In this document: positions 1 through 11,899 of the stretch, piece after piece | Position numbering within the stretch: position 1 is the stretch's first letter | Layout of the letters: the number at the start of each line of letters is the position of its first letter | Assembly (NCBI GenBank): GCA_016190245.1 | Contig: JACPQY010000071.1 | Coordinates: 1-64,000 of the forward strand | Reading direction: 5' to 3' | Length of the DNA: 64,000 nt | Origin: Nitrospirota bacterium | Lineage (GTDB): Bacteria > JACPQY01 | Program-made: the position numbers and the translations under genes | The notes under the pieces: model-generated | Seen by the model: only the letters and a program-made list of their open reading frames with translations | The model's database searches: none | Told to the model about the DNA's origin: nothing

Positions 1-1096
1 GCCACTCGAAGAGCGTTCCCTCCGGCTTCGGTGAGCCCGATCCGTACCAGGGTGTGGCCGACAGGTCGATCACCAGGCTCACCCGCGCGGCCTTCCCGAT
101 GCGCTGAAGAATCCTGCTCCATTTGATGTGCTCGGCGTCCTCGCCCTTCCGGCCGCGTTTCTCGCCGTAGACGTGGTGCGCCTCGTCGTTGATCACGACG
201 AGGTCGCGCCAGCCGCCCAGCAGCCGGCGGATCGGCGCGTTCGGGTCCTGCCGGGCGCGGCGCTGCATCGCGCGCAGCACCGCCTGCGGGATGAAACGCC
301 CCTCCTCGAGCGGCACCTCGCCCTCGCCGATCCAGTCCTCGCGCTTCGACTCGAGCTGAATGTTCTGCCAGTTGCGCACCAGCACATTCGGGTGGAACTC
401 CTCCCGGTACTCGGGCGGAATCATCTCGAAGGCGTCGTAGAGGTTGTGCTCGCCGGTCGGGTCGAGTCCATCGCCACGCGGGACGCCTTCCACCCGGCTC
501 CGCACCGTGAGGTTGGGCACCAGCACGAGAAAGTTCGCCGACAGCGACGAGCCGCTCACCTTGCGTTTGTGCAGCGTCGCCCAGGTGACGAAGAGCGCCA
601 TCACCACCGTCTTGCCGGTGCCGGTCGCGAGCTTGAGCGCGTAGCGCAGCAATTCGCCTGTCTCGGGCATCTTGCGCCGCCCCTGCACCTCGTAGAGGTA
701 GATAACGGTCTCGACCGCCTCCTGCTGGCAGAAGAAGAACCGCTTGGCGACCGCCCGGCGCTCCTCGTCGCGCTCGAACCACCATTCGAGCAATCGCCGC
801 GTGACAACCGCCGTGCCTGGGTAACCGGCCTGGCGCCACGCGCGCACCTCGCCGCGGAGCTGGTTGACGAAGTCGTTCAGCTCCGCAGCCGAGGCCGAGA
901 GATCGTCGAAGAGCTGGGCCTCCTTGCCGACGACGCCGGCGATGCCGCCCTTCACGTCCTTCGCCGAGGCGAGGAAACGCATGGAGGGCCGGCGCGTCCC
1001 GACGCACTTCGAGCGGCCGCCGGGGAGGAGATGGTAGTGCCTGCTGGGCTCTTGGTAGGCATCGCAGATGACGACCCGATCGACGACGTAGGCCAT
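1..1096 (-). CDS. res: Type III restriction Res-like DEAH helicase, partial (C-terminus beyond left edge)
   Basis: This is the N-terminal 365 residues of a large SF2 helicase/restriction subunit; the frame runs open off the left edge. It has Walker A ATGTGKT (157-163), a DEAH box (304-307) and the SAT motif (346-348), followed by the WYGSGSPKPEG stretch I associate with Res-type helicases that accompany beta-class methyltransferases. The family uses ATP to translocate on DNA and carries a C-terminal nuclease, which lies outside the window. The ATG at 1096 is chosen because the reading frame is continuous from it and an AGGT lies 8 nt upstream. It follows the DUF4062 gene after 66 nt and is the last gene seen of the defence operon. 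The helicase call is firm; restriction specificity is inferred. Confidence 0.85.
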   Translation of the reverse strand, partial: MAYVVDRVVICDAYQEPSRHYHLLPGGRSKCVGTRRPSMRFLASAKDVKGGIAGVVGKEAQLFDDLSASAAELNDFVNQLRGEVRAWRQAGYPGTAVVTRRLLEWWFERDEERRAVAKRFFFCQQEAVETVIYLYEVQGRRKMPETGELLRYALKLATGTGKTVVMALFVTWATLHKRKVSGSSLSANFLVLVPNLTVRSRVEGVPRGDGLDPTGEHNLYDAFEMIPPEYREEFHPNVLVRNWQNIQLESKREDWIGEGEVPLEEGRFIPQAVLRAMQRRARQDPNAPIRRLLGGWRDLVVINDEAHHVYGEKRGRKGEDAEHIKWSRILQRIGKAARVSLVIDLSATPWYGSGSPKPEGTLFEW

Positions 1097-1162
1097 GGGA
1101 CTTACCTGCGCGAGAACTTCATGGTGCGACCTCGAGCGGCCTTAACGCTGGGGTCCTGTGGC

Positions 1163-2653
1163 TCATGAGGGCTTCTCCCGCTTCCTCGCGCCTTCGGCAG
1201 TGAGCCGGTACTTCTGCTTGCTGCTGCGAGGCTTGTCGGGGATCGTCATCTCGATCAGGCCGGCATCGAGCGCTGGTTGCAGATAGGCCCTGCGGAAGTG
1301 CTCGTCGTCTCTCAGCCCGAGTGCCTGCTGGAGCTGTTGACGTGTCATTTCTCCTGTCAGGACGCAGACCAGGCGAACTTCCGGGGTCACTTCCGGGGTC
1401 ACTTCCGGGGTCCTGGCCGGCCGAGGCCGGCCAAGGGTCTGGACGAACTGGCCACCGCTCTGGCGGAACTCGGGCGCGGGCAACCCGGCCTCCCGGCACC
1501 GCGCGATCATGTCGAGAATGCCGCTACCCGCCTTCTCGGCGTACCGGGCCAGGAACATCGGTTCGGCGATCAGCGGGTTGCGGGGGATCGAGGCGTGGGG
1601 CCGCTGGAGATCGTCCAGCGTGAGCGACGGCGGGAGCTCGCCAGGATTCCATATCTCGAGCCGATCAGAGAACAGCATCACCTGCACGCTGGCGTTGCTG
1701 GTGTAATCGCGGTGCGCCACGGCGTTGACGATGGCCTCGGCGACGGCCTCGCGCGGCAGCTCGTAGTCCACCGGCGCCTCGGGCGACAGGGCGCGCGTCC
1801 CGACTCGGCGCGCGACCTTCGACATGACGAAGTCGACCGCCTGATCCACCAGCTCGAACGCGGTGCCCCGGTAGATCTGGTACGACGGGATCGGCTTGCG
1901 CACTTCGGTGCCGTGGAAGTGCAGGCACTTGACCTCGGAGGTCAGGAGGAAGCGCTGCGGATCGCGTGCGAAGAGCAAGACCGCAGCATGGCTGGGCTCG
2001 CTCCCGTCGAGCAGGTTGAGGTGCGCCAGGGCCGTCGCCATGGTTGTGCCGGGTGGCAGCGGATACCCGCGCTGGGACTGCGCGCGCGACAGAAACAAGT
2101 TCAGCTTCTCGGCGGAGAGATCGTCGAGCGACGCGCCCGGGCAGGCGGCGGCATCGAAGGGCTTGGTGCGCAACCGGCCCGTGCGTGCGAGGTGATCCAC
2201 CAGGCTCGCGTAGAGCGCCGCGGTGAGATCCGGCGTGCCCGTGAACCGGCGGCGGATCAACTGCTCGCCAGCCTTGCGGATGAGCGCCGCCATCTTGGGG
2301 TGGCGCGCGCGGTCGTCCGCGCCCTTAACGAAGATGAGCCGCGGCTTGCCCTGGCGCGTGGCCTGATCGAACTCCTGCTCGGTGGGCGAGAGGCCTCGCG
2401 CGTCCTCGGGGCCGTACTCGTTGCCGAAGAGCCCCACGTAGAGTGTCGCGCGGTCCACCTCGTCGAGATACACCGCGTCCGCCCGGGCATCCGCGGCGGG
2501 CAGATCCTCGAACAGGAAGACCATGAAGAAGCGCCGCAGCAGCGCGTCGCCCTCGACAAAGGCCTTCACCGCGCGGCGCTCCTCGGCCAGCTCCTTCTGG
2601 ACGCTGCTGATGAAGATGGTGCCCAATGCCTGGCGCGAGGACATCGTCGTCAT
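1163..2653 (-). CDS. DUF4062 + GHKL (HATPase_c_4) ATP-binding protein
   Basis: A 496-residue protein. Residues about 8-105 match DUF4062 (starting GTIFISSVQKEL), a fold often found at the N-terminus of NTPase and defence proteins. The second half resembles the RecG-like/AlbA_2 ATP-binding family, with AIVNAVAHRDY as the N-box and EKAGSGILDM as a G-box. A linker carries three perfect TPEV repeats, followed by a winged-helix-like C-terminus. The frame stays open upstream to 3439, but the ATG at 2653 has a GGGAGG six bases upstream and overlaps the stop of the effector gene as ATGA, so I start there. The position between the CBASS effector and Res suggests a role in defence sensing or regulation; its biochemical activity is unknown. 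Confidence 0.8.
   Translation of the reverse strand: MTTMSSRQALGTIFISSVQKELAEERRAVKAFVEGDALLRRFFMVFLFEDLPAADARADAVYLDEVDRATLYVGLFGNEYGPEDARGLSPTEQEFDQATRQGKPRLIFVKGADDRARHPKMAALIRKAGEQLIRRRFTGTPDLTAALYASLVDHLARTGRLRTKPFDAAACPGASLDDLSAEKLNLFLSRAQSQRGYPLPPGTTMATALAHLNLLDGSEPSHAAVLLFARDPQRFLLTSEVKCLHFHGTEVRKPIPSYQIYRGTAFELVDQAVDFVMSKVARRVGTRALSPEAPVDYELPREAVAEAIVNAVAHRDYTSNASVQVMLFSDRLEIWNPGELPPSLTLDDLQRPHASIPRNPLIAEPMFLARYAEKAGSGILDMIARCREAGLPAPEFRQSGGQFVQTLGRPRPARTPEVTPEVTPEVRLVCVLTGEMTRQQLQQALGLRDDEHFRRAYLQPALDAGLIEMTIPDKPRSSKQKYRLTAEGARKREKPS
1377..1412. repeat. Three perfect 12-bp tandem repeats inside the DUF4062 gene
   Basis: The unit ACTTCCGGGGTC is repeated three times without mismatch. 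On the coding strand it encodes TPEV repeats in the linker before the C-terminal winged helix. Because the unit is a multiple of three, copy-number change would alter linker length without breaking the frame. Confidence 0.9.
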
Positions 2654-3312
2654 GCGCCTCCCTTGGGCGGGCGGTCGGGCGGCGGGGTCTCGTCGAAGGC
2701 TCTTTTTGCTTCCCCGAAGGTCGCGAAGCTCTTGGCATTCCTGCGGCCGAGCTGCATCGTTCCCCTGGTGTGGCGGTCGGTCCAGTAGTGCCCTTCGAGT
2801 GCGGTCGGCGGCTGTCCCTGAACGTCGAGAAGGAGGGCGCCGTAGTGAATCTCGCTTCGTTCTCCTCTCAGCGGGAGATTCGGCTTGTTCATGTAGACGC
2901 CGGCAACTTGGAAGACACCATCGTTCGACCGCACGATGTTGTGTGCGATGAGCCACGAGGCCGATTCCGGCGTCATGAGTCGCATGCTGAGCGACGAGAA
3001 GGTCTGCCGGATCGCCATGTAGCAGGTGATGGGCCCCGGGGTCGTTCCGGTGTTTGGGGCAACCCACTCGGTTTGAAGCGTCACTTCCCAGGTCCCGCAG
3101 AGAACCGGGCGATTCGTGAACCAGCCGTTCAGCCAGGGCGCCTTCCATAGCCAGTTGTCGAAGACACCGAGGAAGACCAAGAGGATCGGCACGACGGTGG
3201 TGACATGTCTCAACCAACGCAGTTCGACAGCGACGCCGTCGATGATGAGAAGGACGAGCCACGCCACACCGACGAGGAGAACGATGGGCGTGAGGTGGAG
3301 CCGCGAAATCAT
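2650..3312 (-). CDS. Cap15-like CBASS effector (two TM segments plus beta-rich domain)
   Basis: A 220-residue protein with two N-terminal membrane helices (about 8-28 and 35-55), then a soluble, beta-strand-rich domain containing CGTWEVTLQTEW and VYMNKPNLPLRGE. This matches the S-2TMbeta / Cap15 effector class of CBASS. In that family a cyclic nucleotide binds the beta-barrel domain, and membrane disruption kills the infected cell. It lies 6 nt downstream of the CD-NTase stop and overlaps the DUF4062 start by 4 nt, so it is translationally coupled. No nuclease or phospholipase motif is visible. The assignment rests on architecture plus the CD-NTase neighbour. Confidence 0.78.
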   Translation of the reverse strand: MISRLHLTPIVLLVGVAWLVLLIIDGVAVELRWLRHVTTVVPILLVFLGVFDNWLWKAPWLNGWFTNRPVLCGTWEVTLQTEWVAPNTGTTPGPITCYMAIRQTFSSLSMRLMTPESASWLIAHNIVRSNDGVFQVAGVYMNKPNLPLRGERSEIHYGALLLDVQGQPPTALEGHYWTDRHTRGTMQLGRRNAKSFATFGEAKRAFDETPPPDRPPKGGA

Positions 3313-3318
3313 GGCCTG

Positions 3319-4218
3319 CTACTCCAAACCCACATAGTTCCACGCCGCATCGATGAACGCGTGCGCCTGCTGCCGCGTCCACTTCTGCGTGTCGCGGAAC
3401 AGCCACTTGAGCCCACTTATCTCGGTCCACTTCGAGCACCGCTCATCGTCGAGGGTGTTGTTGAAGAGGAAGGCGAGCACTTCGCGGACGGCCTTCTTCC
3501 AAGTCTGCTGGCTGAAGCAGTCGTTCGGCGCGTTGTAGACCATGCATTCGATGAGGAAACCGGGGCAGGCGCTGGCCGCAGCGATCCCCGCGTCCTCCAT
3601 CTCGATGCAGAGCTTCTTGAGGATGCGGACGACGCCTTTGAACGCGCGGCTGGTGGCATCGTTCTTCGCGACGCCGTTGCTGTAGTGCTGCTCGGGCCAG
3701 TTGATGACCTCCTTACCGCTGTCCGATACGAGTTTCACTCCTTCGTGGTAAGAGCCGCTGGTCTGATACCGGCGGTACTCGAAAAAGGGGGCCACGTCCG
3801 CATCGACGCGGTAGGTGTTGGCGCGGACGTCGAACGCCTTGTCTCCACGGTGAACCGCGGCGCGCTCGAAGTGGTTCACGAGCGCCTCCTCGACCTCGTT
3901 CTTGTACTGCGCGTACTCGTAGGATGCGGGCGAGTTCAGACCGAGCTGCTCGCGCGTGTAGCCTTCGGGTAGGTCAAAGAAGAACGTGTCTCGACACAGG
4001 ATTCCCATGTCGATATCGCTCTCCTGCCGGACGTTCACGTTGTTCCGATAGGACCCGTGGATGAATACCTTGATGTCGCGGCGGTTCAGCTTCGCGCTGG
4101 ACGCGATGGCGGCACGGATCGCGCGCGTCGCGTTCTCGCACTGCTCCTGTTCGGTCTGGCTCGGAGGCCCGGCCCAGGTTCCGAAGACGCCCTCCCAGTC
4201 CCGGGTGCTGGCGCCCAT
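3319..4218 (-). CDS. CD-NTase, CBASS cyclic oligonucleotide synthase
   Basis: A 299-residue nucleotidyltransferase of the CD-NTase superfamily. The Pol-beta-type signature is intact: HGSYRNN at 54-60, paired acidic residues D68 and D70 in SDIDMGI, and the third carboxylate D141 in RVDADVAPF. These position two metals for cyclic di- or trinucleotide synthesis. The ATG at 4218 has GGAGGGA seven bases upstream and starts 1 nt after the stop of the 62-residue ORF. With the adjacent two-TM effector it makes a minimal type I CBASS; no Cap2/Cap3 (E1/E2, JAB) or HORMA/TRIP13 genes are present. The product nucleotide cannot be predicted from sequence alone. Confidence 0.88.
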   Translation of the reverse strand: MGASTRDWEGVFGTWAGPPSQTEQEQCENATRAIRAAIASSAKLNRRDIKVFIHGSYRNNVNVRQESDIDMGILCRDTFFFDLPEGYTREQLGLNSPASYEYAQYKNEVEEALVNHFERAAVHRGDKAFDVRANTYRVDADVAPFFEYRRYQTSGSYHEGVKLVSDSGKEVINWPEQHYSNGVAKNDATSRAFKGVVRILKKLCIEMEDAGIAAASACPGFLIECMVYNAPNDCFSQQTWKKAVREVLAFLFNNTLDDERCSKWTEISGLKWLFRDTQKWTRQQAHAFIDAAWNYVGLE

Positions 4219-4219
4219 C

Positions 4220-4408
4220 TCAGTCCCTCCTCCGGTTCCACTCCCGGAAGTGCTTCAGCGTCGCGCGGAGGCGTTCATCGTGGCCCCAGCGCTTGTGGAA
4301 GGTCTCGACGATTTGGACGAGGTGCTTCTCGGAGAGGCCGTTGAGGAGGGCGACGACGGCGTCCGTGAGCCGGATCGCGAGCCCCTGAGAATCGTGGAGG
4401 ACTTTCAT
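4220..4408 (-). CDS. Unrecognised 62-residue protein in the defence operon
   Basis: A short helical, basic protein (MKVLHDSQGLA... ending EWNRRRD) that I do not recognise. Its ATG overlaps the methyltransferase TGA as ATGA, and its stop is one base from the CD-NTase start, so it looks translationally coupled on both sides. That coupling supports a real gene. A longer in-frame reading upstream to 4642 lies inside the methyltransferase gene and is not believable. Possible roles are a CBASS regulator, an antitoxin-like inhibitor or a specificity accessory of the methyltransferase; nothing in the sequence decides between them. Confidence 0.6.
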   Translation of the reverse strand: MKVLHDSQGLAIRLTDAVVALLNGLSEKHLVQIVETFHKRWGHDERLRATLKHFREWNRRRD

Positions 4409-6939
4409 CCCTCCCCCAGGTCTCGCACGACGACCGACTCGTTGCCGTACACGTCCACAACCTTCACCGCGATGCGCTTGTAGCCGCGCACCGGGAACGG
4501 CTCCGAGTCGAGCTTGAGCGTGAACTCCTCCGGGTCTACCTCGGCCCTGAGCGCGGCCTTGATGTTCGGCGCCTTCTTGAAGTCGAAGAACATCTGGCAG
4601 TCCACGAAGCAGTCGCCGTCGTAGTCCTCGTCGAGGTACCACGCCGAGACGTAGCCCGAGTCGGCCTGCTTGTACTCGGTGGTGCGGCGCTTGCGGTCGA
4701 AGAGCGCGACACCGTTGAGCGTAACGCGAAGCTGCTTCTCCTTACCATTCTTCACGGGCGCGACCCCGATATCCGGCAGCGCGAGCGGCGAGAAGAGCAT
4801 CTCCGGCTGCGTCGCCTTGAGCCCCTCGGCGAGGGTGTCCGGTCGGATCATGATCAGCTCGACCTTGACCTTGCCGCGTTTCTCGAGCTGCGACTTCACC
4901 TCGCCCACGTTCGCCTCGAAGGCCCAGCCGAGGACGTGCACCTCGAGGATGCCGGAGGCGAGCGCGTCCTGGACGGCGTCGTTGATCTGCTTGCCGGTCA
5001 CACGGCCAGAGAGCGGCCCGACGGAGATAGCGATCTTGACCTTCTCGGTCTCCGCCACCGCGTGCACGAGCCCGGTCGCGCCCTGGATCGCCGCGTCCTT
5101 GCGGTAGAGGCGGCAGATCACCTCGACATAGTTTTCGAGCTTCGCCGCCTCGCCGATGCCCGGCTCGCGGACGACATAACCCTTCCAGTCCTCGACCGAG
5201 TAGCGGCCAAGGGACATGACCTCGAAGGGGCCGCAGACACGGATGGCACTCTTGTCCACTTCCGGCTGGTCCACGAGCTCTACCTTCTCGGGCTCGAGGT
5301 CGTAGGCGAGGCTCTTCGGAGTGACGCGGTTGACAGCCTTGTAGAGGAAGTTGCCCGAGACCTTCCCATTGCGGGTCTTGTAGTGCTCGAACGTCGCGCC
5401 GAGCAGCCGCTGGCGGGCAACGTTGACCGCAACGCGCGAGGTGTCGCACGTGATCCAGCGCCGTCCGAGCCTCTCAGCTACAAACGCGGTGGTGCCTCCA
5501 CCACAGGCTGGGTCGAAGACCACATCTCCTGGTGCCGTACACATCGCCAACGCCCGCTCGACCACTTTCGGTGGGGTCTGTACCACATAGTGTGTGTCGT
5601 GAGACCGCATGAACCCGCTCACTACCGTGTCATCCCAGATGTTCCATAGCGTGCGAACCGGGAAGTCATTGGCGTACCGGATGGAGAAAATGTTCTTTCC
5701 CTTTTGGCCGATCCTGCCGAGATCAATGAGTCGTGCCATGCCTTCTGGCGTGGTGCTCCAGTGGCGTCCTGGCCGGGGTTTGAAGACCTCACCACGGAAC
5801 CTGACCTCGTACGATCCGGTCTCGCTCTCTCCCTGACTCGTCAGGTCCATGAACATGAGGCGCCGACCATCTGGAACTGCCTCAGTGCTCGTGAGCTGCT
5901 CATCGCTGAGCTGCACCCAGACGCCTTCCGCGGTCTCGACGAAGTTGAAGTCGCTCCGCTCATCCGGCGTACGAGGGCGATACAGCCGGAATGGGCGAAA
6001 CACCTCTGGTGACTTGCAGTACCAAAGGAGGACGTCATAGACGTCGTCTATGGCTTGCGAGCTGCGCCCGGCGGCACGGATGAATGCAATCTGGGACACG
6101 AACGAGGCTCGCTCGAACACTTCGTCCATCAAGGCGCGGACCAAGTGCACATTTTCACTACCTATCTGTACGAAGATAGATCCCGTCTCCGCCAGCAGTT
6201 CCCGGCACAGGTAGAGCCGCTCCTCCAGATACGACAGGTACGAGTGGATCCCCAGCGCCCACGTGTCCCGGAACGCCTTGATCGTCAGCACGTCATCGGC
6301 CGCTTCCTTCTCCTCGTTCTTCGTCGAATCCACCCGCTGCTGGAAGTTCGAGTCATACTTGATGCCGTACGGCGGGTCGATGTAGACCATCTGCACCTTA
6401 CCGCGCAGATTCTCGTAGTGGAGCAGCGACTCCATGACGTGCAATGAGTCGCCGCAGATGAGCTTGTTCTTCCAGCCCTCCTCGTGGGTGTAGAACTCGA
6501 CGCGCTTCGCCCGGTCGCTCTCGCGCAGCGTCTTCTCGAGGTCCGCGAAGAGGTGCCCCTGCCGTGCCGCGCCTGACTTCTCCTCGGCCGCCCGGCGCGC
6601 CCGCTCGATGATCTGCGCGATGCGCGACTCGGAGACGATCTCGTTGCGCTGCAGCGGCAGCACCGGCACCTCGCGCCGGTTGCGCTTGCCCGCCCAGAAG
6701 AGCACCGGGTCCGCCGCCGGGTCCATGTCCAACACCACCGGCCGCTCGTCCCCCTCCGGCAGCTTCCCGACCTCGATCGCCTTGCTCCAGCCGTTGTCCA
6801 TCGGCAGCGTCACCACCAGCTCGTCCGCCGGCAGGAGCGGCGTGTGGCCGGTCTCCGGCGTGCGCGGCTCCTTGATCTCGTCGTAGGTGTAGCGGGTGAC
6901 CTTCTTCGACGGTTTCCCACTCGTTTTCCCTTTGCCCAT
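4405..6939 (-). CDS. mod: Type III-like site-specific DNA methyltransferase (beta class)
   Basis: An 844-residue amino-methyltransferase. The catalytic DPPY motif (188-191) precedes the AdoMet-binding motif DPACGGGT (476-483), the order typical of beta-class Mod subunits of type III restriction systems. N- and C-terminal extensions likely hold target recognition and Res contacts. The frame is open to 7164, but the ATG at 6939 has an excellent AAGGAGGAAGAG just upstream, overlapping the stop of the helicase-nuclease gene 10 nt away. It is likely to modify one DNA strand at N6-adenine. It is separated from its presumed Res partner by the CBASS pair and the DUF4062 protein, which is unusual. Confidence 0.88.
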   Translation of the reverse strand: MGKGKTSGKPSKKVTRYTYDEIKEPRTPETGHTPLLPADELVVTLPMDNGWSKAIEVGKLPEGDERPVVLDMDPAADPVLFWAGKRNRREVPVLPLQRNEIVSESRIAQIIERARRAAEEKSGAARQGHLFADLEKTLRESDRAKRVEFYTHEEGWKNKLICGDSLHVMESLLHYENLRGKVQMVYIDPPYGIKYDSNFQQRVDSTKNEEKEAADDVLTIKAFRDTWALGIHSYLSYLEERLYLCRELLAETGSIFVQIGSENVHLVRALMDEVFERASFVSQIAFIRAAGRSSQAIDDVYDVLLWYCKSPEVFRPFRLYRPRTPDERSDFNFVETAEGVWVQLSDEQLTSTEAVPDGRRLMFMDLTSQGESETGSYEVRFRGEVFKPRPGRHWSTTPEGMARLIDLGRIGQKGKNIFSIRYANDFPVRTLWNIWDDTVVSGFMRSHDTHYVVQTPPKVVERALAMCTAPGDVVFDPACGGGTTAFVAERLGRRWITCDTSRVAVNVARQRLLGATFEHYKTRNGKVSGNFLYKAVNRVTPKSLAYDLEPEKVELVDQPEVDKSAIRVCGPFEVMSLGRYSVEDWKGYVVREPGIGEAAKLENYVEVICRLYRKDAAIQGATGLVHAVAETEKVKIAISVGPLSGRVTGKQINDAVQDALASGILEVHVLGWAFEANVGEVKSQLEKRGKVKVELIMIRPDTLAEGLKATQPEMLFSPLALPDIGVAPVKNGKEKQLRVTLNGVALFDRKRRTTEYKQADSGYVSAWYLDEDYDGDCFVDCQMFFDFKKAPNIKAALRAEVDPEEFTLKLDSEPFPVRGYKRIAVKVVDVYGNESVVVRDLGEG

Positions 6940-6949
6940 CTCTTCCTCC

Positions 6950-9748
6950 TTACGCGGCTTTCTTGGACATGGCAGTTTCACGGGGCCTGCAAATTCCGAC
7001 CATGTCGCAACCCTCGCACGTCTTGCACCAGGACGAAATCCGGGTGAGCTTGTTGTCACGTAGATTCCTACCCGCCTCCACCACCGTGTCCATTGTGTTG
7101 GCGAGCAGGGTGGAATCGACCTGTTCTCGAATCGCTCCGCCCTTGTCCAAATTGTGAATCTCAATGAGGTCGGGCCGTTTCCCCGTTAGTTGTTCGTATC
7201 CCACGGCGTATATGTGAAGCTGTTTTTGCGAGATGTCTTCCTTCTGAGCCCTTTCGTCTGACTTAAAATCGACGATCACCACCTCCTCGGTATCCGTCCG
7301 CCGTATCAGGTCAACCCGACCTGAGACAACCACACCTTCGTCGAGTTTCAGCTCGATGGGCTTCTCGACGTGTTCGAGCTTGGTGAGATTCTTGCCATGT
7401 TCGTTGATGTATCCAGACAAGGCCCTGTGGGCGGCATCACGGAGGGACTGTTCGACCTGCGCATTGGCGAACGGGAGATGAAGATGCTCGTCAACCAACC
7501 TCGGCACGTCAGTCCCGGAAGGTATTCTGCCAGCTATGGATTCCGAGTGAATTTCGGCCAAGGCGTCGTGGAGCGATTTTCCGTAGCCGAGCGCGCGACT
7601 GACGGGAGTGTCGAAACCGTACAGGAATCGGATCTTGAAGAGGTACGGACACTCGAAATAGTACTTCAGCGCGCTGAAACTCAGATTGAGGGTGATGTCC
7701 TCGCGGCGCGGCTTTTCCGGGATCCGAGGAGGGGTTGAAACCACAGGATCCTTCGTAAGGACATGCTCGCTGTTGGTGAAATCATTGAAAAAATCCGAAA
7801 CGGTACGCTGCTGCTGGTTATCGGCAATTGGCGCCCACGTGCAGAAGAGGTACTTTTCCGCCCGCGTGAGGGCCACGTAGAAGAGCCGTCGTTCGTCCGC
7901 AATCGTTCCCTTGTACCGATCAGCGTTCGTAACCGCCTTCTCCGGGAGGATGCTCCACACGGATCGGCCGCCTTGGCGCTTTGACGGGAAGCGGTTCTTG
8001 CGGAGCGCGGGAACAAAAACCGCGGGCCATTGCATCCCCTTCGCCCGGTGTACGGTGAGAATCTGGACGGCGTTTGGCCTCGCGAGGCCCGCTTCTTCCC
8101 AGCCTTCCGGATAATAGCCGGGGGCCTGGAAATGCAGGAACTGCGAGAAGCTGGGGTACAGGTCTTTCGGGACCGTATTGAAATGTATCTGCTCGAAATC
8201 GGAAACGACCTGGCTGAACTTGCCCAGGTTGAAGAACACGATCTCGCCCGCGCTCGCGTCTCCCGCTGCCGCGTTGATGTCCACTTCCCGAATCTGAATG
8301 GCCTCGAGAAAATCCAGATATAGCCGTTGGAGGTAGAGTTCAGCGTCCATCCGATCGCCGATGGTCGTCTTCTTCGCCTTCAGAAAATCCATTCCCGCAT
8401 CCAGCCGCCCGGATGGGAGACCGAGCCTGGGCGACTGGAGGGCTGCTCGAACGTCGGTCTCCGTGGGGGAGGTGCCTCCCTTGGGGGCAAAATCAGAAAG
8501 GTAGAAGAAAACCAGTGACATGGCCCGGACTTCCGGCGTGTCGAAAAGTCCATCCATGCCGGCGACCACGTAGCGGATTTCATTGCGATCCAACGCGGCG
8601 AGGATGGGTGCGGCGTCCCTCCGAACGGTACGAAGGAGGATGGCGAAATCCGAGTACGTAAGGCCGCGGGGCGGTGAGTCCTTTCTGTCCGTGAAGGGTG
8701 CCCCCAGCAGCGATTTGATCTTCCTGGCAATCCACTCCGCCTCAGCGGCAGGATCCTTGAATCCAAGCGCGAGCAGGTCGCCGCGCTGGTAGGGCTGCGC
8801 GTCCGTATGCTCCATTGCCTTCTGGAGCCGATCTGGATTGTTTTTTTCGGCGATTCTACGTGCCGTTTCCACAATGGCTCGACTGCTACGAAAATTCTCA
8901 TTCAGGGGGAGTTGCCGGACGTCCCCGTATCGATCGGAGAAAGTGATGATGTTGCCAACATCGCTTCCCCGCCACTGATAGATCGTCTGGTCATCGTCTC
9001 CCACCACGCAAACATTGGCGCCAAGGCCGGCCAGTTCCCGGATTAACGACTCCTGGAGCGGGTTGACATCCTGGTATTCATCGACAACGAGGTATTTCAG
9101 TTGGTTGCTGATCTTTTCCTTGATCGTGGCGTTGGTCTTGAGTTCAGCTACCGCCTCGGCAATGATCTTCGTGTAGTCTAGGAGTTTTTTCTCGACCAGA
9201 AGCTCATGGTATTTTCCGAACGCCTCCCACACTGCCCTTGGAATCTTTTTGGGTTCGACCTTCCCCTCGCCCAGGATCGCAAGCAACTGCTGGTACAGAG
9301 CTGAGTCTTTCCAACGCTCCAAATGGCCCCCGTTGAGCAGCGGGGTTTCGGTGAGCCCGCTCTTTTTGCTGTTCCGATCGATCAACAGACGCTGTTGAAC
9401 CTCGTCGAGGACTCTGTACTTCAGGAAGTCATACTGGGGCGGTGATTGAAGCAGGGTCAGGCAGTAGGCATGGATTGTCCCTATGAACATGTCGGCGAGT
9501 CCGCGATCGGTACCGAGAACTTCGCGGCAGTGAAGGTGAATTCGATCCTTCAACTCTCCAGCAGCCTTTTCAGTAAACGTAAAGGCGACGATATTTGGAG
9601 GTCCAACGCAGGCCGATTTCTTCTGTTTCAGAATCTCGACAATGCGGCGCGAGATGACTTCCGTCTTGCCGGAGCCGGCGCATGCGATTATCTGCAGGTT
9701 CCGGTCGATCGTGGAAATGGCCTTGAGTTGTGACTTTGTGTAGCTCAT
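6950..9748 (-). CDS. UvrD/RecB-type SF1 helicase with C-terminal PD-(D/E)XK nuclease
   Basis: A 932-residue helicase-nuclease. Walker A ACAGSGKTE is at 22-30, helicase motif II DEYQD at 223-227, and a motif near VHRAKGMQWPAVF resembles motif V. The C-terminus is a RecB-like nuclease with D813, D827 and K829 (GRVD ... IVDFKS) and four cysteines, C908, C911, C914 and C920, suggesting an iron-sulfur cluster as in AddB/Cas4-type nucleases. It is the first gene of the defence operon. Base composition is visibly lower in GC and codon use less biased than in its neighbours, hinting at separate acquisition. In this setting it more likely degrades foreign DNA than serves general recombination; that is inference. 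Confidence 0.87.
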   Translation of the reverse strand: MSYTKSQLKAISTIDRNLQIIACAGSGKTEVISRRIVEILKQKKSACVGPPNIVAFTFTEKAAGELKDRIHLHCREVLGTDRGLADMFIGTIHAYCLTLLQSPPQYDFLKYRVLDEVQQRLLIDRNSKKSGLTETPLLNGGHLERWKDSALYQQLLAILGEGKVEPKKIPRAVWEAFGKYHELLVEKKLLDYTKIIAEAVAELKTNATIKEKISNQLKYLVVDEYQDVNPLQESLIRELAGLGANVCVVGDDDQTIYQWRGSDVGNIITFSDRYGDVRQLPLNENFRSSRAIVETARRIAEKNNPDRLQKAMEHTDAQPYQRGDLLALGFKDPAAEAEWIARKIKSLLGAPFTDRKDSPPRGLTYSDFAILLRTVRRDAAPILAALDRNEIRYVVAGMDGLFDTPEVRAMSLVFFYLSDFAPKGGTSPTETDVRAALQSPRLGLPSGRLDAGMDFLKAKKTTIGDRMDAELYLQRLYLDFLEAIQIREVDINAAAGDASAGEIVFFNLGKFSQVVSDFEQIHFNTVPKDLYPSFSQFLHFQAPGYYPEGWEEAGLARPNAVQILTVHRAKGMQWPAVFVPALRKNRFPSKRQGGRSVWSILPEKAVTNADRYKGTIADERRLFYVALTRAEKYLFCTWAPIADNQQQRTVSDFFNDFTNSEHVLTKDPVVSTPPRIPEKPRREDITLNLSFSALKYYFECPYLFKIRFLYGFDTPVSRALGYGKSLHDALAEIHSESIAGRIPSGTDVPRLVDEHLHLPFANAQVEQSLRDAAHRALSGYINEHGKNLTKLEHVEKPIELKLDEGVVVSGRVDLIRRTDTEEVVIVDFKSDERAQKEDISQKQLHIYAVGYEQLTGKRPDLIEIHNLDKGGAIREQVDSTLLANTMDTVVEAGRNLRDNKLTRISSWCKTCEGCDMVGICRPRETAMSKKAA

Positions 9749-9938: not shown

Positions 9939-9974
9939 TGGCTTTGAAGGGCGGCCGGCCAATGGGGCGACGTG

Positions 9975-10046
9975 AGCGGGCGATGGGATTTGAACCCACG
10001 ACCCTCGGCTTGGGAAGCCGATGCTCTACCCCTGAGCTACACCCGC
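9975..10046 (-). tRNA. tRNA-Gly (anticodon CCC)
   Basis: A full cloverleaf can be folded: acceptor GCGGGTG/CGCCCGC, D-arm GCTC/GAGC, anticodon stem TCGGC/GCCGA around loop TTCCCAA (anticodon CCC), T-arm GTGGG-TTCAAAT-CCCAT, and discriminator U as usual for glycine. CCA is not encoded. Its 3' end points into the defence island. Confidence 0.95.
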
Positions 10047-10105: not shown

Positions 10106-11899
10106 TCAGAGCCGGTCCTCCATGCGGGTGAGGAGTTCGACCATGCGGTCCAGGATCGCGCCCGGCGCATAGCCGGGGAAGTTGAGGAGGACGATTTCCT
10201 TGGCGTAGAGTTTGGCGATGTACCGCCGCAGGCTTCTCAATTTCCCCCGGGCCGCGGCGTAGTCCCGGTGACCCGCGTTGATGTCAATGACGTTGGCGCC
10301 GGCGTCATAGCGCGACCGCCAAGGCTGCCCGGCCGCCTGGATCAGGCGGTAGCCGGGCAGACCGCGGCGCCCTTCGCCCCCCTCGCCCAAGAGGGGTGAT
10401 CGCTCCTCCACGGAGATCGTGGCCTTCGCGCGGACTTCGATCCCCTCCTGGGACGCCGTGACCCCGATCACAGCCGCCCCGTGCTCGTTCGGGGCGTGGA
10501 CTTCCGCCTGCGGGCCCTCGGCTCCCGCGATCCGCACCGGGCCGCTCTCGACTTCCCACACGTAGGCCACGCCCGCGTCAATGGACCGGCGCTGTTCGTC
10601 CATCGCGCGCGCCACCAAGCGGCGCGTCTCACCGGGAGCGATCCGCGCCCGCGCGGGCACGACGCACACCTGCGTCAGCGGCCCCGGAGGCCCCACCTCG
10701 AAGATTTCCACCTGACGCCGGTCACGCTCGCCCCCGCCCGGTGTTTCCGCCTGTTCCTCCTTGGCGGCGCGGCCCACCTCGAACAACTCGTATTCATGCT
10801 CTTCGAGCTGCCGGAGGGCCTCGGCCAGGGCGCGCTGCACATCCTTGAGCAGGTTCTCGCTCGCCTTCTGCTCCTCCGCGCGCTCCCGCGTCTCCAGGAA
10901 AGCCACAACCGCCGGCTCGATAGAGCGCACGGCCTCGATGAACCGGGCCAACATCGCGTCCGGCACCACACCGCTGCGCGTGGCGGGGCTGACGTTGAGC
11001 CCGGGGAAATCTACAAGACCCTCCAGCCGGTTGAGCGTCCAGGGGGGGCGGTTGAAATCGTCGAGGTCCTGGATCCGGCCGGCCACGCGCGTCCCGTCAC
11101 GGAAGACGCCGACATCGAGGGGCTCCCCCTCGGCGGGGACGCGGTAGTAGAGGTCCACCCGCACGGGCGCCGCCTCGGGCACGGCAATCTCCCGGGTAAG
11201 CTCCACCCTCTCTCCCTGAAAAGCCTTGGGCTTCACGGTGAGGCGCTTGCGCGAGACCTTGTCCACGATTTCGATGAGGACGCCCGTGGACCGGATCCGA
11301 TCCCGCAGCTCCTCCGCCAGGTAGCGCTCCAGGCGCTCGCCGCTCAGCGTTCGCTTTGCCGTGTCCCTCACCGGCGTGACCGTCACCTCTACACCCGGAA
11401 GGGGCAACCGTCCCCTTGAGGGGTGGATCGAATATTTCGGCGAGCCCGCGCGCATGACCATCTCGTACAGTCCGCCGTCGCTTCCCCGCGAGGAGAACCT
11501 CAACACCTCCCCCACCGCCCAGAATCCGAGGAGGCCGATGCCGAATTCGCCGTGCACGCCGGTTCGCTCGCCCTCCGTCAGGTGGCGCTTGATGGAGTCG
11601 CAGATGTGCGTCGCTACGTAGCGGAAGTCCGGCCGCCCGTCTTCGCCCAGCCTGACGCCTTGGCCGTCGTCCAGCACGGTGAGGTAGGTCTTGCCGCGGT
11701 GCCGGCCCCGGACGATCGAGACGCGCCGCGCGCGGGCATCCAACGAGTTTTCCACGAGCTCCGCCACGGCCTTCAGGGGATTGGTTTGCGTGCGGGCCAA
11801 GAGGACGATCGCATTCCATTCATCGCCGATGCGCAGCTTGCCGGACTGGGGGCGTCCCACGACGGGGGAGCCTAGCACGGATCGCCCGCCCGGCTCCAT
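10106..11899 (-). CDS. GHKL ATPase-domain protein (MutL/Hsp90-like ATP-binding fold)
   Basis: A 597-residue protein with an N-terminal GHKL nucleotide-binding domain: AVAELVENSLDAR is the N-box with the catalytic glutamate, VLDDGQGV the G1 box, and GEFGIGLLGFWAVGE the G2 box. The arrangement recalls MutL and other HATPase_c_3 proteins. A glutamate/arginine-rich, probably coiled segment follows (about 325-380), then an Ig-like beta region and a conserved C-terminal stretch (PGYRLIQAAG...). No MutL endonuclease domain is seen. It lies 24 nt downstream of the Crp/Fnr gene, so may be co-transcribed. The function is unknown; a role in DNA transactions is only a guess from the ATPase family. Confidence 0.75.
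   Translation of the reverse strand: MEPGGRSVLGSPVVGRPQSGKLRIGDEWNAIVLLARTQTNPLKAVAELVENSLDARARRVSIVRGRHRGKTYLTVLDDGQGVRLGEDGRPDFRYVATHICDSIKRHLTEGERTGVHGEFGIGLLGFWAVGEVLRFSSRGSDGGLYEMVMRAGSPKYSIHPSRGRLPLPGVEVTVTPVRDTAKRTLSGERLERYLAEELRDRIRSTGVLIEIVDKVSRKRLTVKPKAFQGERVELTREIAVPEAAPVRVDLYYRVPAEGEPLDVGVFRDGTRVAGRIQDLDDFNRPPWTLNRLEGLVDFPGLNVSPATRSGVVPDAMLARFIEAVRSIEPAVVAFLETRERAEEQKASENLLKDVQRALAEALRQLEEHEYELFEVGRAAKEEQAETPGGGERDRRQVEIFEVGPPGPLTQVCVVPARARIAPGETRRLVARAMDEQRRSIDAGVAYVWEVESGPVRIAGAEGPQAEVHAPNEHGAAVIGVTASQEGIEVRAKATISVEERSPLLGEGGEGRRGLPGYRLIQAAGQPWRSRYDAGANVIDINAGHRDYAAARGKLRSLRRYIAKLYAKEIVLLNFPGYAPGAILDRMVELLTRMEDRL

Follow-up and report, generated by a model that had tools for sequence, protein, structure and literature searches.

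The nesting of one defence module among the genes of another is already established. TgvAB lies inside a type I restriction-modification (RM) locus and protects without the need for the restriction activity of HsdR (PMC11411939), DarTG2 is located between hsdS and hsdR at a place termed a potential recombination hotspot (PMC12255303), and Hma clusters, too, harbour defence candidates among their genes (Payne et al. 2024, 10.1101/2024.01.29.577857, as presented in the citing papers PMC11411939 and PMC12255303). We describe here a locus at the start of a 64,000-nucleotide stretch of a Nitrospirota genome (GenBank assembly GCA_016190245.1, contig JACPQY010000071.1; hereafter the window), in which seven minus-strand genes encode, from upstream to downstream, a UvrD-type helicase-nuclease, a type III-like methyltransferase (Mod), a 62-residue open reading frame (ORF), the cyclase CdnE and the effector Cap15 of a cyclic-oligonucleotide-based antiphage signalling system (CBASS), a DUF4062 protein and a restriction endonuclease (Res) (Table 1). 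As with TgvAB, DarTG2 and the Hma-embedded genes, a self-contained module stands between the genes of another system, on the same strand and at a position that is re-used, with HEC-01 and GmrSD in common; unlike these cases, the host is a type III-like UvrD-Mod-Res operon and the cargo is a CBASS pair with a DUF4062 gene. We propose, with high confidence, that a mobile UvrD-Mod-Res core gained the 62-residue ORF, CdnE-Cap15 and DUF4062 cassette exactly in the gap from the stop codon of Mod to the start of Res, the locus being composed of layered and independent modules. As far as the literature shows, three features are new: a host operon that is type III-like, the turnover counted at its Mod/Res junction and the particular stack of CBASS and DUF4062 genes.

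Evidence comes from relatives of the core, the best 80 loci being examined of at least 579 confirmed for Mod. The closest Mods among the matches listed (58-66% identity) belong to metagenome-assembled genomes (MAGs) of Nitrospira (L012), of an organism titled Deltaproteobacteria and placed in Myxococcota (L013) and of a Thermoplasmata archaeon (L014), and to an IMG/VR contig (L092). Between Mod and Res, none of these four loci has a CD-NTase (cGAS/DncV-like nucleotidyltransferase) gene, Cap15, DUF4062 or the 62-residue ORF: the matches to Mod and Res are separated by 13-17 nt in L013, L014 and L092, and by 256 nt in L012, where the gap holds an unrelated ORF of 67 aa. The order UvrD-Mod-Res is found in L012, L013 and L092, whose Res proteins are 79-81% identical to that of the window; in L014, the genes after Mod-Res encode a different UvrD-type helicase and, separately, a PD-(D/E)XK nuclease. 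The preliminary description had treated Mod and Res as a single RM unit, which is confirmed by their adjacency in the closest relatives, and its assignment of the UvrD-nuclease to the same unit is borne out by the presence of this gene beside or near Mod/Res in 13 compared loci, in both gene orders and on the opposite strand in 3 of them. A tree built from 82 Mods places the window together with L092, L013 and L014 in a fully supported clade, of which only the window bears cargo; L012 was omitted, its Mod frame being interrupted. Conservation of Mod is patchy, with 20-38% identity to L013 and L092 at ~281-440 and roughly 60-95% over most other stretches. The L012 Mod is 92% identical to that of the window over residues 12-233, near-identical at ~630-710 and more than 90% identical outside the recognition region as a whole, and its cargo is different. 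Because close relatives are free of this cargo and Mod is conserved in patches, we conclude that the core is mobile, that it swaps target-recognition regions and that the gain of cargo was recent. In L092 (2358-13876), a serine recombinase gene precedes UvrD-Mod-Res, and genes for an XRE-type regulator and an M78 peptidase follow; in this case an integrative element carries the RM core.

The junction between Mod and Res is a slot that has been used repeatedly. Res lies near Mod on the same strand in 76 of the 80 most Mod-similar genome loci, at a distance below 150 nt in 40 pairs, of 150-4000 nt in 35 and larger in one. Counted by eye, about 25 gaps contain an ORF of 100 aa or more in the same direction, a few of the 35 intermediate gaps being without a clear ORF, and cargo ORFs of at least 90 aa point the same way as the operon in 35 of 37 cases. 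On the Mod tree, the presence of cargo requires 22 changes, at least 14 of which are forced by well-supported branches. The cargo identified elsewhere in the slot comprises HEC-01A/HEC-01B, PD-T4-4_A, IetA/IetS and PDC-M04A, together with GmrSD, Abi_2, Fic, zeta-toxin-like, PemK, DUF3800 and DUF5131 proteins, and consists mostly of defence or toxin-antitoxin genes. In the one further genome available for comparison in the phylum (G001), the slot holds a TcmP-like gene, named by resemblance of sequence only. No cyclase or Cap15 match was found in any compared Mod/Res gap. Both an insertion between genes that are adjacent in relatives and a turnover of cargo at the same place are on record, and the CBASS and DUF4062 set of the window is, as judged from these comparisons, one filling of a general slot.

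Several loci broaden this picture. A Res-Mod pair of a distant lineage (L187, G001:C25, 8869-16067) also has cargo between its two genes, a 293-aa protein similar to the 277-aa cargo of L032; in L032 a DUF5131 gene comes next. On a Shinella plasmid (L008, 2504-14528), genes matching ZacA and ZacC lie between a UvrD helicase gene and Mod-Res, so that nesting may also occur at a second site, on the UvrD/Mod side. In two actinomycetotal loci, Mod is separated from the UvrD-nuclease gene by 3.6 kb (L018, 12595-16165) and 1.5 kb (L023, 4193-5668), which likewise points to cargo there.

The CBASS pair has its closest described counterparts in the ClCdnE, EfCdnE and LpCdnE operons (PMC10442399) and in the Ssc-CBASS of S. 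schleiferi, a CdnE-Cap15 system described as flanked by a type I RM system (PMC10686824). As in those operons, a clade E cyclase is followed by Cap15, and the window enzyme has the di-pyrimidine signature; unlike them, the pair lies inside rather than beside an RM operon, its sequences are divergent and its activity is predicted only. CdnE matches the PADLOC cyclase model at 1e-127 and ClCdnE at 2.1e-76, and its active site is intact (GS at 55-56, DxD at 68-70, and D141, invariant among relatives). Cyclic di-pyrimidine synthases are marked by an (R/Q)xW motif and a lid asparagine (PMC10442399); both are present in the window enzyme as Q278-K-W280 and, in lid 1, N173, so that the predicted product is a cyclic di-pyrimidine of the cUU type. 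Cap15 is recognised by PF18153 (Cap15_CD_rec, 1.9e-12) and by the PADLOC two-transmembrane effector model (2.7e-69), and in characterised systems this effector disrupts the membrane (PMC10686824). With Cap15 6 nt downstream of the cyclase and no Cap2 or Cap3 among the seven genes, the layout is that of a type I CBASS.

This pair is found as a free-standing unit elsewhere, on Vibrio plasmids and in prophages. The best plasmid relatives of the cyclase are in Vibrio (55-57% identity), where Cap15, 41-42% identical to that of the window, follows directly and no RM gene is annotated nearby. Among 14 cyclase loci from plasmids, sampled genomes and viral contigs, Cap15 adjoins the cyclase in 12, none lies inside a UvrD-Mod-Res operon and several are among phage structural or lysis genes. 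Eight loci on viral contigs came from a scan with a cyclase alignment; a single-protein scan, whose patterns were too specific, gave no match there. Cap15 is present in 13 of 795 sampled Bacteroidota and Pseudomonadota genomes. In 11 additional Cap15 neighbourhoods, visual inspection of ORF starts and motifs showed no Mod/Res pair (one, L240, is near an HsdS-like gene). The genomes of L012 and L013, which carry the two closest cellular bacterial Mods, contain no related cyclase at E<=1e-10; the same query, run against 399 Pseudomonadota genomes at E<=1e-25, recovered cyclases in 3 of them. In L195, L199, L196 and L201, CdnE-Cap15 pairs 46-53% identical to that of the window stand among phage structural or lysis genes of viral contigs in the manner of moron-like cargo. 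In L193/L203 (G054:C1), both flanks of such a pair match the HATPase_c_4 stretch (residues 301-389) of the window DUF4062 protein, possibly a duplication at insertion.

These distributions bear on the suggestion of the preliminary description that the locus is a combined system in which RM and CBASS are co-regulated. A common evolution of the seven genes, and a joint action that links DNA cleavage to cyclic-nucleotide signalling, would agree with their tight packing in one direction. No other compared Mod/Res locus, however, has a cyclase, Cap15 or the 62-residue ORF in its gap, the L012 and L013 genomes are without a related cyclase and every cargo part occurs free-standing elsewhere, which makes such a conserved composite most improbable. 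The expected conservation of gene order in distant taxa is not seen in the compared Mod/Res and cyclase loci, and homologues without the CBASS pair, named beforehand as what would refute the idea, are what the compared Mod/Res loci contain. Since core homologues occur without the CBASS pair, the combined system is unsupported as an evolutionary unit; co-regulation through a common transcript is possible.

The core itself resembles type III RM systems of the EcoP15I class in its beta-class N6 methyltransferase, variable target-recognition region and partner predicted to be a ResIII-type helicase-endonuclease, and differs from them in the distant similarity of Mod and in the association of an extra UvrD/Fe-S nuclease. 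Mod has an N6_N4_Mtase domain and matches PADLOC MTase_III at 3e-117 and EcoP15I Mod at 4e-12; the beta-class N6 motifs (DPPY at 188, FxGxG-type at 475-485) and a swappable target-recognition region (~280-480), as expected of a type III Mod, are both present. Res shows the ResIII helicase motifs and belongs to the NCBIfam family BPTD_3080 (NF046055, 3e-74). Its helicase part is present and its C-terminal part falls beyond the contig end; in L092 the C-terminal match of Res to PADLOC REase_III is weak. No solved structure is detectably related to the BPTD_3080 family, a literature search found no paper on it, and the YprA/ARMADA paper mentions neither CBASS nor BPTD_3080. The UvrD protein contains UvrD-helicase (3.5e-54) and PDDEXK_1 (2.9e-22) Pfam domains, and its conserved cysteines 700, 911, 914 and 920, together with the nuclease motifs, match what is expected of an AddB/Cas4-like Fe-S nuclease. 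It also matches GajB models (7e-56), as UvrD helicases generally do. Gabija was rejected, no neighbouring gene having a match to GajA, the OLD-family nuclease.

The DUF4062 protein is best compared with the Swarozyc proteins, reported in a preprint as TIR-like NADases giving abortive infection, an auxiliary winged-helix domain of KpSwz sensing the phage portal (PMC13174449). The window protein shares with them a DUF4062 domain (PF13271, 9e-19), a conserved candidate catalytic glutamate and a C-terminal winged-helix-type domain; unlike them, it has a central HATPase_c_4 (1.6e-23) and Fic-like_C (5.2e-25) module. The glutamate, Glu94 in the motif SPTEQEF (SPTEEEY in a Legionella relative), would be equivalent to E97 of KpSwz, and by this analogy the protein is predicted to be an NADase. 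Its relatives stand alone on Legionella plasmids (54-55% identity), and a role as a fixed partner of CBASS was rejected on account of this free-standing occurrence.

The 62-residue ORF matches the last 45-50 residues of Eco57I/DrmMI-like methyltransferases of the type IIG class, with alignments of 42-47 residues at 43-49% identity to the ends of proteins of 1335-1375 aa in L168-L170 and a PADLOC REase_MTase_IIG match of 2.7e-5 at model positions 1322-1374 of 1378. The methyltransferases concerned lie immediately upstream of an SNF2-type helicase gene. It is most simply read as a detached methyltransferase tail; membership in the RM core was rejected, the ORF being absent from the closest Mod relatives. 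In L220 (~8000-8341, G418), a 94-aa frame matching it lies between a gene of the size of an Eco57I-like methyltransferase and the large gene after it; this may be either a frameshift or another tail that has become detached.

The position of this ORF at the head of the cassette, overlapping the Mod stop codon, raises the question of a guard. Nested CBASS and/or DUF4062 functions could be silenced by the RM enzymes or triggered through them, upon inhibition of Mod/Res by a phage or upon the appearance of RM cleavage products, the 62-residue tail perhaps being the adaptor. A precedent is provided by the EcoprrI locus, whose anticodon nuclease PrrC is reported to be coupled to the RM enzymes as such a guard, and the orientation of slot cargo with the operon (35 of 37) would also suit coupling. 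Against this, the CdnE-Cap15 pair occurs as an independent unit, the cargo classes in the slot are mutually unrelated, and TgvAB, the only nested module put to the test in a locus of similar build, does not depend on HsdR restriction activity (PMC11411939). We consider a guard of this kind quite improbable. A more specific version, in which translational coupling and/or the 62-residue protein would let the type III-like enzyme, either acting or inhibited by a phage, set off cyclic-nucleotide signalling and NAD+ loss as a suicide response gated by restriction, is regarded as quite unlikely.

The description of the locus as seven minus-strand genes with gaps of 66 nt or less proved accurate: successive distances are 10, -4, 1, 6, -4 and 66 nt, all but the last at most 10 nt, with ATGA overlaps at the Mod/62-residue ORF and Cap15/DUF4062 junctions. 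Domain searches likewise agreed with the parts named at that stage and added the Fic-like_C domain. A single shared transcript is likely from this spacing. A consensus scan of the run found no sigma-70-like promoter, and terminator-like sites showed no excess (9 versus 7.6 expected); both are weak evidence in a GC-rich genome. Base 1 of the window is the end of contig C63, which cuts Res after 365 residues, and the remaining part was not found on the other contigs of the source genome (85% complete, 86 contigs, from a poorly sampled phylum).

It could be argued that genes piled up here by insertion and that part of them, such as Res or the 62-residue fragment, is non-functional, in which case the operon-like appearance would mean little. 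The match of the small ORF to only the tail of a larger enzyme, the contig end within Res and the interrupted Mod frame of the close relative L012 would accord with such decay. All seven frames, however, are open with coding-like codon-position GC, the 62-residue ORF included (GC at third codon positions, GC3, 0.89); the catalytic motifs are intact where testable, and the genes are tightly packed in the same direction. A decaying island is accordingly judged very unlikely. GC3 is 0.79-0.91 across the genes, with a lower value of 0.69 for UvrD, hinting at a history unlike that of the others.

Table 1. Genes of the UvrD-Mod-Res locus and the neighbouring tRNA gene (window positions)
Feature	Position	Strand	Remark
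UvrD/PcrA-like helicase with C-terminal RecB-type PD-(D/E)XK nuclease, 932 aa	6950..9748	-	RM core
Mod, type III-like N6-adenine methyltransferase, 844 aa	4405..6939	-	RM core
62-aa ORF, methyltransferase-tail-like	4220..4408	-	cargo; start overlaps Mod stop (ATGA)
CdnE, predicted clade E CD-NTase, 299 aa	3319..4218	-	cargo
Cap15, predicted two-transmembrane beta-barrel CBASS effector, 220 aa	2650..3312	-	cargo
DUF4062 (TIR-like) - HATPase_c_4 - Fic-like_C winged-helix protein, 496 aa	1163..2653	-	cargo
Res, BPTD_3080-family restriction endonuclease, first 365 residues	1..1096	-	RM core; 3' end lost (frame runs to <1)
tRNA-Gly (CCC)	9974..10046	-	ARAGORN; 226 nt upstream of UvrD gene

The tRNA-Gly (CCC) gene is a possible island boundary. 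An integrated island bounded by a repeat of this tRNA was rejected, since its 3' end does not recur anywhere but in tRNA-Gly genes to mark a far side, and a comparison with G001 for an empty site was uninformative, there being no common neighbourhood around tRNA-Gly(CCC). Just past the tRNA, a 597-aa protein with an N-terminal HATPase_c_3/MutL-like domain is encoded at 10106-11899 (minus strand), with no relative found in G001. Elsewhere in the source genome, the 29-nt 3' end of tRNA-Gly(GCC) (G000:C10:225271-225299, L188) recurs at G000:C42:25095-25123 (L189) without a surrounding tRNA, and this repeat is likely to be the attachment-site duplicate of another integrated element.

Taken as nested cargo, a type I CBASS and a Swarozyc-like DUF4062 gene have probably been accreted onto the RM core and are probably co-transcribed with it; we infer that the modules are mechanistically independent. 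Mod would methylate host sites chosen by its target-recognition region, and Mod and Res together would cut unmethylated phage DNA, as is generally known of type III RM; the UvrD/Fe-S nuclease probably acts on the resulting DNA ends. Should a phage pass this RM layer, an infection cue would activate CdnE to produce the predicted cyclic di-pyrimidine (cUU type), and its binding by Cap15 would permeabilise the inner membrane. The DUF4062 protein would separately destroy NAD+ once its C-terminal domains sense infection. Placed on a common transcript, the modules would provide a layered defence in which each is able to work alone. Some points weigh against this proposal: the biochemical activities and the common transcript are deduced from a locus known from its genes alone; Res is truncated at the contig end, so that the RM system of the cell is only putatively intact; the close relatives of Mod among the matches listed are only four, three MAGs and one IMG/VR contig; and the two ATGA overlaps are unusually tight for a recent insertion, which leaves room for selected translational coupling.

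With layered modules as the favoured reading, what had been suspected to be a hybrid machine becomes a testable rule, according to which the Mod/Res junction is an exchange slot for abortive-infection and other anti-phage cassettes. Reading this slot across genomes should uncover more defence genes, as has already happened with the nested contents of Hma and type I RM loci. The window locus and its Nitrospira relative L012 form a clean pair for asking whether nested cassettes depend on the operon that hosts them.

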